From Moniliella sp. 'wahieum' (taxonomy: Eukaryota > Basidiomycota > Moniliellomycetes > Moniliellales > Moniliellaceae), in the NCBI GenBank assembly GCA_003971905.1, contig RSEE01000134.1, forward strand, positions 89,122 through 153,121: a stretch of 64,000 nucleotides of DNA, given 5' to 3'. Below the pieces are notes generated by a model. The model had not been told where the DNA came from. It was given only the letters and a program-made list of their open reading frames with translations, and ran no database searches. The position numbers were made by a program, and so were the translations under genes. Numbering within the stretch: the first letter of the stretch is position 1; each line of letters opens with the position of its first letter. Positions 56,086 through 64,000 of this stretch are shown piece after piece.

Positions 56086-57301
56086 TTACCACGACATGTC
56101 AACGAGGAAGTTTTTGTCGATGTTCTCGTTGGGCCCCTCGTCACGGGGTAAAACGCTGCCAAAGATACGGTCCCACACACGCGTCTGTTTACCGTAGTTG
56201 CCCGAGTGCTTCCATCCACGGCGGTGGTGAATGTCGTGATCCTCCATGGTGATGTCCATGTCAAGCGGCTGCAGGAGGAACGGGAACGCCTGAAACGCAG
56301 TGAAGTAGAGTCGAACGCCGGCGTGCCCGAACATCTCGACAACCGTTACCATCGCAGTGCAGAACCACCATTCGTAAAAGTTGGGGCGCAGGAATGAAAT
56401 GGGAGCCATGGTGAGCCACGTCAGGAGTGGAATGCCTACCATGTCAAACTCTCCTGCTCATCGTCGGCAAACAGGGTGAGGAGCGTGTTGGGGTGGCGTG
56501 ACAAGTGATGGGTGCGGTGGTAAGGCCAGAGGGAATCCGACTCGTGCATGATCCGATGGTACCAGTAGTAGTAGAAATCGAGCGTCCACGTGTAGACAGC
56601 CATCTGGATGGGCAGTTGCCAGCGAACCGTGGGTTTCGAGTCGGCGTCCCACGTGGTCATGACCTCCATAAAGATCCGCTGGCACACGGTAGAAGAAGGC
56701 TGGCAGCAACCTTCCCGCCCATGGCATCGGGCACTTGGTCTCGTGGCGAAGCCGAGTCAAAGTACCCATACTTGACGCCGAGGTCGCGGCACTTCCAGAT
56801 CACCGCGATGCCCAAGTGGTAGTAAAACAGCATGTAGAACGGAATCGCGGCCCACTTGTTGATGCCTGCCTGGGAGACGGGCGACGGCTGGTCCTTGTAG
56901 AGCACGTCGTTGAACAGGTACGAGATGGCGTACTGGATGATGAAGGGGGGCGCAGCGCGCACCATGGCCCAGCGGAACTGGGTGAGAGGCGAAAGGTAGG
57001 GGACAGGCGCCTTGGGGTCGACGTACTTGGGCTCGTCCGCCAGAGGCCAAAGGTCGAGCAGAGTCAAGAGGTGGGCGGACCAGTCCTTGGGCGCGTCGGG
57101 GTTGGACCTCCATTCGGAGCGAAAGTTGGAGTTGCCCATGCTGATCTTGCGGACTTCGGCAATGTTCTCGTCGAGGTCCGCAGCGCGCATGTAGGCTGGC
57201 GCGTACTCGTCGTCGGCTGGGCGGGTGGCGGCGGCGCGGCGCGGAGTGGGAGGATGCTGCTCGCTGATGGCGGTGGCGGTGGCGGTGGCGGTGGCGGTCA
57301 T
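56086..57301 (-). CDS. Fatty-acid hydroxylase / sterol desaturase superfamily membrane enzyme
   Basis: Di-iron ER membrane oxygenase. The three histidine clusters are visible: HRIMH (within FYYYWYHRIMHESDSLW), HRTHH (YHRTHHLSRHPNT) and HDIHH (MEDHDIHHRRGWKHSGNYG). ATG at 57301 gives a Thr-Ala dipeptide run (MTATATATATAISEQ). Then ENIAEVRKISMGNSNFRSEW, TLLDLWPLADEPKYVDPKAP, WAMVRAAPPFIIQYAISYLF and IPFYMLFYYHLGIAVIWKC, then RIFMEVMTTWDADSKPTVRW. Another frame break near 56450 precedes VGIPLLTWLTMAPISFLRP and YEWWFCTAMVTVVEMFGHAG. The stop is at 56086-56088 after NFLVDMSW. Helices flank the His boxes as expected. The substrate (sterol or fatty acyl) cannot be set from this sequence. Confidence 0.85.
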
Positions 57302-58150
57302 GGCGGCGACTGGCGGCTGGGACAAGGGGGTGGGTGGGTGCAGTGGGTTACTTATCAGAGGGGCGAGCATGTGGGGACGCGAGCGCGCTGGGTGGGACAG
57401 GGCTGGGCAGCAGACGATACGAGAGGCAGGCAAGGCCAGCAGAAGGGCCCACCGCTGGGGCCCACCGTGGGGGCTGGGGTGGGAGCACGGCAGAGGGTGT
57501 TGAAAGAGCAAGAGCGGCTGAAAGAGGAACTTCCTCTTTCAACACATCAGATCCATCCCTGATGCGAGACTAGAGCCCTGGTGGACGTGGCTCGTAGTAT
57601 GCAATGCATTATAGTTGCTTTAAGCTGCCGGCCATTGTCGGTTGTAGCATTGCCATATACCCGGCCTTGCAGCTGGCTGGACAGGCGTTGGGGTGGAGTG
57701 GGACATGCGATGGGCGCTATATCCGACACATCCTAACCCAGTCCGCTCGGGGCGCCCGTCGTTGAGCCCACTATATTTCCTCTACTGAACGCTAATACAA
57801 TGGCAAACCCCAGGCAGGGCTCAGCCTGCCTCGGCCTGCCTCGGCCTGCCTCGGCCTCAGCCGGGGCGCGCAGGCACCCCGTCCGTGCCTCTGCGGGAGG
57901 GTGCCCACGCCCACCCAGCCCCCTGACGCCTGATGCCTGGGGCCGGACGCCTGACCCAGTGGCAAATGACGCGGACGTCCCAGAAGGACGCACGGGCGCC
58001 GCTCACTGCTGGCAACATCGTCTAGTTTTTCTTCGGCGGTTTGCGGCATCGGGGCGTCGGCGAAAGAGCATAAGACGCACGTGCCATCCAGCATCGTTTT
58101 GCCCTTCGTTTCCTCCCACACCGCCACCAACACCCCCTACCACATCCACC
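57302..58150. other. Divergent intergenic between hydroxylase and dehydrogenase genes
   Basis: Contains an inverted pair AAGAGGAAC-TTCCTCTTTCAACA around 57520-57545 and a CCTGCCTCGG tandem repeat (about four units, 57828-57862). The SDR leader is 58090-58150. No gene recognised. Confidence 0.45.
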
Positions 58151-59192: not shown

Positions 59193-60904
59193 GCATATGC
59201 GAGCAGCCATTAGCCCTTTTGGCGTGTGATGCCGGTCGCATCCATTGGAATCGAATGTACGCCCCCAGTACTAGTGTGTCTATTCCTGGTAGATCCCACC
59301 CGACCCGGATCTCTCGGTAGCATTTGGTATAGTATTAACTGTGAGCCATCTGTCGGTTTTCTGGTTGTCATATGTTCTGATTAATCGTGTCATCGTCTGA
59401 CTGATGGACTCGCTGCCATTTCCGATCTCTTCGTCCCGAGCGTCTTGCTCCTTCCCTGTGTTGTGCTTCGCACCGTGTTCTCTGTCCCCTTGCTTCTTCC
59501 CCACGAACGATTGCTACAACCCCTGACCTAGTCTCGATTCTGGTCTTCCTCGCCTTAGCCCCGACTGTGACAAATCGGGCGTGCCAAATTGAATGAAGGA
59601 TGAAGGGCGACGGTGCTGGGTATACTGCAATGGACGCGCGTCTAATACTTCTCCGGGTTCTACACTGAGTCTGAGGCCCTGAGGCCTGAATTCTTGAATA
59701 TTTACTGTTACGTTCACACCTTCACACCTAGCTCGGCCCTCCGCGGAAGGCCTCGGCCATCCTCGGCCAATGGCCAGTGGGCTGCATCTACGTCAGCTGG
59801 GCATCAATATCAATATGGTTGAGGCTGCGTGTTTGAGTTCACCCTGCTCCGCATCGGTGTTATTACCCGTTTGTCGATTGCCGGCGGGTAGTAGTACCCG
59901 TGGCTTGAGTCTTATCATAACCCTCCATATATTTTGCCTACTCGGTCTGATCTGCAGGGCCGTTCACCCGAATATATGCCAAAATTCAGCCGAATATCCC
60001 AATGGTTCTTCGTTCGCTCACCGCGCTCGGCGGTGCTCGGCCAAGAGACGGTGGGTGGCCATCTATCGCCACGAGCGGATCTCAGCCAGGTGGGGCAGGG
60101 GCAGCCGCCGTTGTCTGATACAACGCCCATGGAGTCGAATTCTCAGTGAAGAGAGATGCTCTGAGCGGGCTGACAGAAACGTCATGGCATGGACGTGTGG
60201 GCGTTGTGGTGTTTCTTCTTAACAGTTTCCATTGCTGGGCTGAAATGGGTCTCTGATGGATCTGATGCGGATATTGCCTCAGCGCATGAGTATAGGGCGT
60301 GGCACAGGGAAACAGTCTGGCTAATCTCCGGGCCTGAGCAAACACTTGCATAACCTCCGCCCTCTCCATGGCCCACATGCCAATAAGCTGACAGAAGGGG
60401 CGGGCGTATGATTTACAGAGCGAGCTAGTGTGTGTGGGGTGCGCGTACCGTATAGTAAGTCAGCGCGTGAATTAGACCCCTTGTCAACGGTTGCGACTTG
60501 GGGAAATTGGTTTTACGCTGTGGGGCATCAAGTGTTATATGACTTGCCAAGAAGACCCCGCTGGGACACAGCCGAAGGAGGCCGAGGGAGGTTGATCAGG
60601 GTGGCACTGCGGGGCAGAGAAGGGAAGAAAATGCCCCGCATCAGTCCGGGTGCTTCCTAAGGGTATTGGTTCTATACTGTCTACGTTACTGCGTGTGTCT
60701 ATCCCACACCCCATCCCACATCTCCATAGGCCAGAACCGCAGGCTCCCAGCAACTCTACCCCACCATCGAACCTTCTCTTCCGTGCCTTTCGGATCCAGC
60801 TCCCAGGCCTGAGCATTGTTCATTGCTTACCGCTAAGCGCTGGTCACAAGAGGCATCCGTCACCACCTGCGACGCTGTAACACCTCATTTTTGGCACACA
60901 CACA
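59193..60904. other. Intergenic, no gene recognised
   Basis: AT-richer, short frames only. GCGGGTAGTAGTACCCGT (59884-59901) contains a short inverted repeat, ACGGGTACTACTACCCG-like. Nothing else supported. Confidence 0.4.
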
Positions 60905-63900
60905 ATGCCATCCAACTCAGAGAACGCCCGCGCGACAGCGCACGAGGACACAACGCCGCTCTTACGCCGTCGTCGTCCCGCCGCTCAGCCTACGCACCGA
61001 CCGAGACAAAAAATGTATCGTGTCGGAGAACCGATTGGTTACTTGGCTGCGCGTGGTACACCTTACCAGAAGAAGTTCCTCAGCAAGAAACTTGGGTTCT
61101 GCCTGGTCGTGTTTTTCCCTCCAATTGCCGTGGTCGCTTTGGCCATCGCTCTTGTCCCTGTTTTCTGGGCCATCGGAAACCACACGCTCAATGTCGTTCA
61201 AATGAACATTGAACAGGCCAACTTGACCTCGCTTACCAACACTTCTCGTTTTCCCTCTCTTTATCTGGACGGGTACGTTACCGTTCCATTCGTTTCCTTC
61301 TGCTCTATAGTAGGCGTATCTGACCCCAATTCCACACAGAGCCTCAAGGCCGGCATTTTCCCTGCCTCGATCTATTTCCGCGACCCGCTGGATGTCTATT
61401 GGATGACTCCTCCCCCGGAGATGAAAGAGCTGCACTTGGGCACCTTCCCGATGGGACGCGTAAGTGTTGCTAGCGGCCACGGAAAGGTGATTCAGACGAC
61501 CAACTTCGCGATTACCGATGTGGATGGGTTTAGGATGTTTACCGAGTTCCTTGTTACTCAGCCACGGTTTACTTGGAGGTTGGTGTGCAACAACACTCAT
61601 ATTGAGGCGCTGGGCTTTATGCCGACGTACAAGAACTACCAGTTTCGGAAGCATGTCCAGTTTAACGGTTCGACAATTTTCATGATGTGCAGCTGGTCGA
61701 CTTTCAGTTGCCAGGGAACGACCCTCTGGGCGGCATCACGCTCCAGGCGCTTGCAACCTTATCAACCACCCATCGCCTTTCTCGGTGCAGCTAGGGTACC
61801 TCGAGTTGGATTTGTACTATCACGGTCTTTACATTGGTCCTAGCGCCACTTCCGGCCCGATCAACGTCACCTCGGGGCATAACACTATCCTTCTTGTCGG
61901 TCGCCTGCTGCCCCATAACACCAACCAGACCGAGCTCGACCTCATTGGCGATCTATTCACCAAGTATATCAATGGCGACGTCGTTCCTATCGTAGCCAAA
62001 GGTGTCTCGGCGACGTTAGAGGATGGGGAACAGGTCTCCTGGCTCGCTCAGGGGATTAAGCCTTGGCAATCAATGTGCCTCTCCAGACCAAGCCCATTAA
62101 CCCGATCAAGTCGATTACGATTGAGGAATTCAGCATCGCCTTTTCCGAAACATCTCCATGGCAGCTGACCGTTTGGTCGGACAGCCTTGCAGCACAACTC
62201 GGTCTACCGTTTGGATTTCAGCTCAACATTCTTGAGACTGAGGACACCATCCAGTTGATGTACAACAATTCGATCGTCGGTGTCGTGGAGGGGACCTACT
62301 CCAACTCATCTCTTTCCCTCAACGTGGTAAATGCCGGTGCGACCGAGGGAGCGTTGGCTCTCACCCTTTCCCCCTTCCCTCTTGGTGGTAGGGGGAAACC
62401 AATCAGCACAGGAACTCTGGACTCAATATGAGGATGAGCTTGTTTTTGGCGTCAACACCTCTACCCGTCTCATCGGCATATCCCACGCGTTGACCGACAC
62501 GCCCGTCGGACGCATCCTCCTCTCTCCCATCAACTTTGACGTCGAGTCGGGGCTTACGGGGCTGCAAGGCCTCAACAAGTACCCGACTGTGATCCACTCG
62601 GTGAATCTGCAGGGGGTACGCAGGAAGCACTGCAGCTCTCAATTCCGGTAACCATCGTTAACCCCTCGAACCTGAACCTCACCACGGTACGGTTCAATTC
62701 CAACTGGTCAATGATGTGGTGTTGGGGACCGTAACGATGCCCAACCTGCACCTTGATTTAGGTGCGAACAATATAACGGCGCAAGCTGATTTTAATCCTC
62801 GGGTGGGACCCACGGGTTACCTTACCATCAACCGGTTCTTGTCCGGCCTAGACACCCGGTTGTACATTAACGGGTATGGTAACTCTTCCCGATTGCTTCG
62901 CTCACCCGTCGCTGGAGAAGATTCGAATCAACACCATTCTGCCCGGGCTGGAGCGGCCATTGATTGTACAAGCGCAGCTCCAAGTGCCTGACACCATTGA
63001 CTCTAACAACATGACGAACATCTCGGTCACCATCGCCAACCCCTTCACCGCAGCATTGGACATCAAAACAATTGTGTCGACTCCCGGTATGTATATAACA
63101 ACAACTCGTGCTGTGCGGTGCACCGGAACTGATGACTGACATACCTCGGCAGTGTACAACAATCTGACCCTGGGAACCATCGACACCACTTGTCCTCTCC
63201 CATCCATGCAACTGGAAACGAGCACGGTGAGCCAGGAGCTCCCTTTGGCGCTCGCACGCACCCCAAAAAGCTGGTTCACCTGATCCTACAACTGGCTCAG
63301 GCGAGCCAAACCTCCCTCGGTCCTTGGCCTCCATTCCTTCAGAGTATCCTGGACTTGCCCGGAGATGCAGCAACACAAGTCAAGGGCGTACCGGGAGGTC
63401 CCGGGGCGCATCGTCCTGCCCCACGAATGGTGCATTTGACCTGCGAACGGCCATCCTCCAAGCTGCCAACAAATCGCTTTCTGTCAACGTCCCCCTCGAG
63501 GTGGAAGCGAGCGTTGAAGAGTACACCATGGCCCTCAATTTCACCCAGGGGCCTGTTCCCGTACAGACGGACACGTCACTGTTGAATTTGCTCGGTCCGG
63601 CGGGGGCGCCTTTGATTCAGACAATTGTTGATCAGGCGGTCCTGAGCTTTGCCCAGGGTAACATTACGAATGTGACGGACAACGGGTTTTATCGTGAACC
63701 TTCATGGCACACTACAGACAAACGCGCCAACCAATGCGTTGATCGTTTTCCCCATGCCGCTGGAGATCCGATGGAACGGGGCTTTCATTGCTACCATTAG
63801 CCTTCCTCCCATTTGCATTATTCCAGGACAAGGAGTGCCTGATTTGCTCATCACTGGCCAGGTGAATATCACGGACCAAGCTGGCTTCACTACCTTTGCC

Positions 63901-63983
63901 AAATATATTCTCCACAACAAGAGTTCACCTGGGAGATTGGGAGCCCCCATGTGAATGTCTTGGCTCTGGGCATGACTTTTTCC
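60905..63983 (+). CDS. DUF3712-type membrane protein, 3' end cut by the telomere
   Basis: Fungal single-pass membrane protein of unknown function. ATG at 60905 opens MPSNSENARATAHEDTTPLL. A basic stretch is followed by one long hydrophobic helix (LGFCLVVFFPPIAVVALAIA). A large extracytoplasmic part rich in Asn-x-Ser/Thr follows, with repeated DUF3712-like beta segments: AGIFPASIYFRDPLDVYWMT, TNFAITDVDGFRMFTEFLV, FSIAFSETSPWQLTVWSD, IGDLFTKYINGDVVPIVAKG and VNVPLEVEASVEEYTMALNF. Likely introns are 62327-62411 (GTAAAT...CACAG) and 63087-63152 (GTATGT...GGCAG, joining STP to VYNNLTLGTIDTT). The last readable residues are EFTWEIGSPHVNVLALGMTF and SG, then the telomere repeat supplies TTAGGG and an immediate TAG. 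Members normally continue past this point, so this copy is truncated. Several base losses interrupt the frame. Confidence 0.75.
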
Positions 63984-64000
63984 GGTTAGGGTTAGGGTTA
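63984..64000 (+). repeat. Telomere repeat (TTAGGG)n, right chromosome end
   Basis: GGTTAGGGTTAGGGTTA: nearly three units of TTAGGG, G-rich strand running 5' to 3' toward the right edge as required for a right telomere. It starts directly after coding sequence, with no subtelomeric repeat between. The array continues beyond the window or ends there; only 17 bases are visible. Confidence 0.8.

Follow-up and report, generated by a model that had tools for sequence, protein, structure and literature searches.

The DNA analysed here, referred to as the window, is a stretch of 64,000 bases corresponding to C134:89122-153121. Contig C134 totals 153,121 bases and its last base is also the last base of the window. 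At this right-hand end the 5′ part of a DUF3712-family gene runs into telomere repeats. The features involved are as follows:

60452 to 62619, plus strand: stretch common to C134 and C174, in two pieces (60452-60599, 85% identity; 60686-62619, 91% identity), from alignment.
60897 to 63984, plus strand: DUF3712-family gene, 5′ portion, with alignment starting near 60897 and the cut at 63984 (Pfam PF12505, homologues).
63787 to 63930 (C134:152908-153051), plus strand: final DUF3712 match, incomplete, covering profile positions 3-48 of 125 (genome profile search).
63913 to 63920, plus strand: one-base frame shift relative to C121, a deletion or a consensus error, placed by eye.
63984, plus strand: single G fitting both the gene and the telomere repeat, a possible 1-nt seed (comparison with C121 and C150).
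63985 to 64000, plus strand: telomere repeats GTTAGGGTTAGGGTTA, reaching the contig end (sequence reading and repeat count).

The gene was recognised by a PF12505 match above the curated cut-off in the frame 60881-61843 of the window, and a profile search of the genome returned matches at C134:150554-150790 and C134:152908-153051. A Pfam scan of the neighbouring frame, 56657-57538, gave no match. Window positions 59388-59576, about 4.4 kb before the junction, are occupied by a dispersed repeat of about 185 bp which is present with 84–86% identity at at least 17 other places, one of them partial. Up to 63984 the gene is 84% identical to C121:38168-41275 and 83% identical to C150:74521-77593, and pieces of C79 and C3 align with it at about 70–75%. 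Comparison with intact homologues past the residues TFSG, which the initial annotation had suggested as a check, finds that these relatives continue: beyond the junction point C121 and C150 read TTTTCCGAGGTGAAT (TFS-EVNLVKNV) and corresponding codons are present in C79 and C3. All four extend beyond the cut point, in agreement with the proposed loss of the C-terminus. In C121 a frame of 736 codons spans the junction, which falls at residue 156, within a DUF3712 domain covering residues 91-214. A C134 gene built like that of C121 would lack at least 580 codons. The relatives on C3 (601966-607283) and C79 (214666-220232) each align in two parts about 2.4 kb apart; DUF3712 matches lie within this gap, so that extra domains are likely there.

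At the junction itself the shared part ends in TTTTCCG, and base 63984 is the final position common to C134 and the related genes. Where the window has CCGGTTAGGG, the alignment gives CCGAGG in both C121 and C150, so only the G at 63984 can be gene-derived and the GG that had been thought to prime telomere addition is not a GG of the gene. The stop noted right at the join is indeed immediate, as TAG, but its origin needs correcting: it is telomere-encoded throughout, and the preceding glycine codon, GGT, is already two-thirds telomere, the gene supplying a single base. The tract measures 16 bp by direct reading (15 when counted by script from the first TTAGGGTTAGG). Within the 64-kb window TTAGGGTTAGGG occurs a single time, and it occurs in none of 100 shuffles. 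The TTAGGG repeats face outward, with the G-rich strand as in a true right-hand end, and non-telomeric DNA abuts them directly at the contig end, from which we infer a chromosome end. At the left end of the contig, telomere repeats were not found in the first 120 bases. The direct joining of the gene to telomere repeats had been claimed from the outset, and this telomere-capped gene truncation, with the PF12505 gene followed by 16 bp of repeats and the contig end, is confirmed at the assembly level.

The gene part does not, as had been believed, read without interruption. The frame shift nearest to the telomere lies about 65–70 bases before the repeats (by eye) and only the last 22 or so codons before the junction share one frame. 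When the 3.1-kb gene part is aligned together with its counterparts in C121 and C150, private frame-shifting indels appear in all three copies, 19 in the window, 5 in C121 and 42 in C150. Since C150 is 97% identical to C121 when gaps are set aside, its 42 shifts have the appearance of errors in the consensus. Judged by such indels, the consensus quality of the assembly is poor. The frame shifts in the window copy are likely to be mostly consensus errors; gene decay may be an alternative source.

This arrangement is probably a terminal truncation healed by de novo telomere addition. The chromosome end would have broken or eroded inside the DUF3712 gene, and everything distal, including the last 580 or more codons of the gene, would have been lost. 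Telomerase would have put TTAGGG directly onto the broken 3′ end, with at most one G as a seed. Many other ends of the genome may have undergone the same event, while on homologous arms the sequence would remain intact and probably make up for what was lost. The telomerase RNA-binding domain PF12009 is found above cut-off at two loci, on C1 and C25, one of which has an internal stop.

The assembly, probably of a fungus to judge by the DUF3712 family, comprises 69,493,810 bases in 223 contigs. Many contig ends bear short TTAGGG arrays; those at left ends lie on the minus strand, those at right ends on the plus strand. We compared 38 telomeric contig ends (L and R below denote left and right ends). 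A standard cap, the terminal CTATCTACCCTCGGCCCTCCCCTAGGG preceding the repeats, is present at 17 of them and absent from 21, referred to as bare. At C134 this cap, seen at other ends, is missing between gene and repeats, and the original statement that no subtelomeric filler intervenes is upheld in this sense. The genome contains the cap pattern, with up to two mismatches allowed, 31 times (control, 0), and all 14 of its minus-strand occurrences lie no more than 610 bases from a left contig end. Three of the bare ends (C88L, C94L and C102L) are cut within the standard element and 18 in other sequence, which is repetitive at some of them (C175L, C178L). An 18-bp telomere pattern finds 29 contig ends, 13 standard and 16 bare. 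These 16 include C35R, which, like C17R, is outside the 38 and lacks the cap by eye. Telomere-like ends on C52, C67, C80, C104, C179, C186, C194, C210, C222 and others, some of them maybe interior, fall outside these counts. It is the proportion of bare ends that is unusual, not the existence of such a junction. At the right end of C35 the repeats lie about 70 bases upstream of the 28S rRNA 5′ end (RF02543), on the ITS2 side, and an rDNA unit is cut there. Arrays of TTAGGG also occur inside C19 (775281-775298, at least 1.5 kb from the ends) and C75 (199297-199320, more than 150 kb from the ends), each either an interstitial telomere or a wrong join.

The shortness of the arrays, 12–33 bp at all 38 ends, indicates that the assembly stopped short of the true ends. 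It also brings up the leading alternative, an assembly or library artefact in which a chimeric or badly corrected read added a few telomere repeats to an ordinary contig break. A C134 array of just 16 bp, the many contigs that finish likewise and the poor consensus, with 19 private indels that shift the frame of the 3.1-kb gene part, would fit such an origin. However, the arrays point outward at 40 of the 40 contig ends fetched (the 38 together with C17R and C35R); had a true telomere end been attached by blunt ligation, they would point inward. Nor do standard and bare ends differ in tract length (means 21.2 and 21.9 bp; P 0.77). An artefact is unlikely because it would have to produce both the outward arrays at every one of these ends and the equal array length in the two kinds.

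Healing of a broken end is further supported by sequences that continue where bare ends stop, as do the homologues of the C134 gene on four contigs. Flanks of 140 bases from 17 bare ends were searched against the genome, taking the best 40 of 361 and the best 40 of 79 candidates. Among the matches listed, 11 of the 17 have a copy of at least 91% identity elsewhere. Copies were retrieved for eight of these, leaving out C175L (a satellite-like repeat), C178L and C189L. For C8L, C17L, C35L and C111R there is no copy among these matches (best 40 of 361 and of 79), and for C213L and C217L the copies listed reach 73–74% at most. In all eight ends with retrieved copies the copy reads past the telomere junction. 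Their identities in the search are 99% (C28L, C37L, C26R), 97% (C63L, C147L), 95% (C92L), 94% (C209L) and 92% (C116R), and realignment over 200 bases gives values from 165/166 (C26R) to 135/153, or 88% (C209L). In each of the eight, a contig end lies 1.3–31 kb from the best copy, which faces it. C37L has a further copy of its flank, on C59, which departs from this pattern by facing inward. The contigs bearing the copies would be the matching chromosome arms, as with C63 and C103, C37 and C90, or C26 and C112. C63L ends within a gene for an M41 peptidase (PF01434, E 4e-20), and its copy on C103 extends beyond the junction. By eye, C147L resembles a PDR-type ABC transporter and C35L a short-chain dehydrogenase, for whose peptide Pfam gave no match at E 0.01. 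An element of 5.05 kb begins 0.75 kb from the C63L telomere and is present with 99–100% identity at at least 25 other places.

For C134 itself, candidates for an allele were considered and rejected: the best copies are those of C174 (91% over 1.8 kb), C121 (84%) and C150 (83%), and none of these homologues, at just 83–91% identity, is its allele. A query with the distal part of the C121 gene found only C121, C150, C79 and C3 together with two short weak matches (C60 and C27), so that no C134-like remainder was seen. On C134 the 8.8 kb upstream has no near-identical copy among the best 40 of 463 candidates. With neither a distal remainder nor, among those candidates, a near-identical upstream copy, C134 itself is not comparable with an allele.

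The C174 copy stops at 62619 and gives way to the standard subtelomere element with its tandem repeat. This repeat, with a unit of about 40 bp (TCGCTATCGCCTCGGCATAACTCTCTCCCCTTCGGGTAGC), occupies C174:1-955 at the contig end and belongs to the standard element. Two contig ends thus cut copies of the DUF3712 gene, that of C134 bare, that of C174 carrying a subtelomere, and the C174 copy suggests that the standard subtelomere might be gained later by recombination. For ends of the C134 and C174 type the bare state would then have come first and the cap later. The same copy, ending 1.4 kb earlier at a standard element, and the relatives of the gene on several contigs are also what might be expected from telomere capture, in which break-induced replication copies a gene fragment or an end of another arm and the telomere is inherited. 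This appears very improbable, since the last 3.2 kb of C134 are near-identical to no other place found and the upstream 8.8 kb likewise gave no near-identical copy in the candidates considered.

If the repeats were instead added directly by telomerase, the junctions might retain traces of priming. Overlaps between flank and repeat, read by eye, are of 3 nt at C147L, 2 nt at C116R, 1 nt at C63L, C28L, C92L, C209L and C134, and 0 nt at C37L and C26R. An overlap of at least 1 nt is thus seen in seven of nine junctions (simulation, P 0.04; mean overlap, P 0.10); the statistics are weak and the counts are a hint of priming, no more. Programmed chromosome breakage followed by telomere addition, which occurs in ciliates and some nematodes and would yield many bare junctions within one genome, is scarcely credible here, as a simple word test of the terminal 60 nt of 19 junctions found no 6-mer in common more often than expected by chance, and no telomere-like or GT-rich seed tract precedes 18 bare junctions, whose last 100 nt, compared with 3000 random places, have neither longer telomere-like words (P 0.38) nor raised GT content (P 0.76).

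Healing of a terminal truncation by telomerase could be extended to the genome as a whole. Bare healed ends might be the rule: arms would repeatedly be cut about 1–30 kb into genes, be re-capped by telomerase within a few bases and later regain the standard subtelomere by recombination, redundant homologous arms would keep the lost genes, and nuclei of one culture might differ in their ends. We regard this general scheme as tentative and rather doubtful. What the genome offers is a readable, exact joint between a gene and what is probably the new chromosome end that truncates it, and this joint is one of 21 at bare ends in the 38 compared. If reads confirm these ends, the set could serve to measure the frequency, place and seed of telomerase healing as well as the regain of subtelomeres.

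A literature search covering titles and the openings of abstracts returned no account of this genome or of the C134 junction. Terminal deletions healed by telomere addition are known in human 16p and in Plasmodium, where repeats are fused to broken internal DNA. A close likeness is with Pyricularia (Magnaporthe) oryzae. There, 19 of 24 de novo telomere events used seeds of 1–4 nt (PMC7367193), and many telomere-adjacent sequences are subterminal in the reference strain, in a position and orientation that fit terminal truncation, while others are not (PMC7367193, PMC8381367). As at C134, repeats there are set straight onto non-telomeric DNA with a very short seed, and truncated rDNA ends are described, as at the right end of C35 (PMC7367193, PMC8381367). 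In contrast, much of the Pyricularia instability is linked to telomeric retrotransposons (MoTeRs), whereas the C134 window holds no second TTAGGGTTAGGG, and events there were followed in cultures, whereas ours are deduced from one 69-Mb assembly. In Cryptococcus hybrids 15 breaks healed by de novo telomere addition are reported (PMC7846113). Those events were deduced in hybrid progeny, with telomeric reads and read coverage as the evidence, whereas the present ones come from an assembly alone. The Cryptococcus authors deem the terminal losses tolerable since a homeologous chromosome remains (PMC7846113), which resembles the cover by homologous arms proposed here. By analogy, the C134 end would work in the same way as telomere healing in Pyricularia and Cryptococcus.
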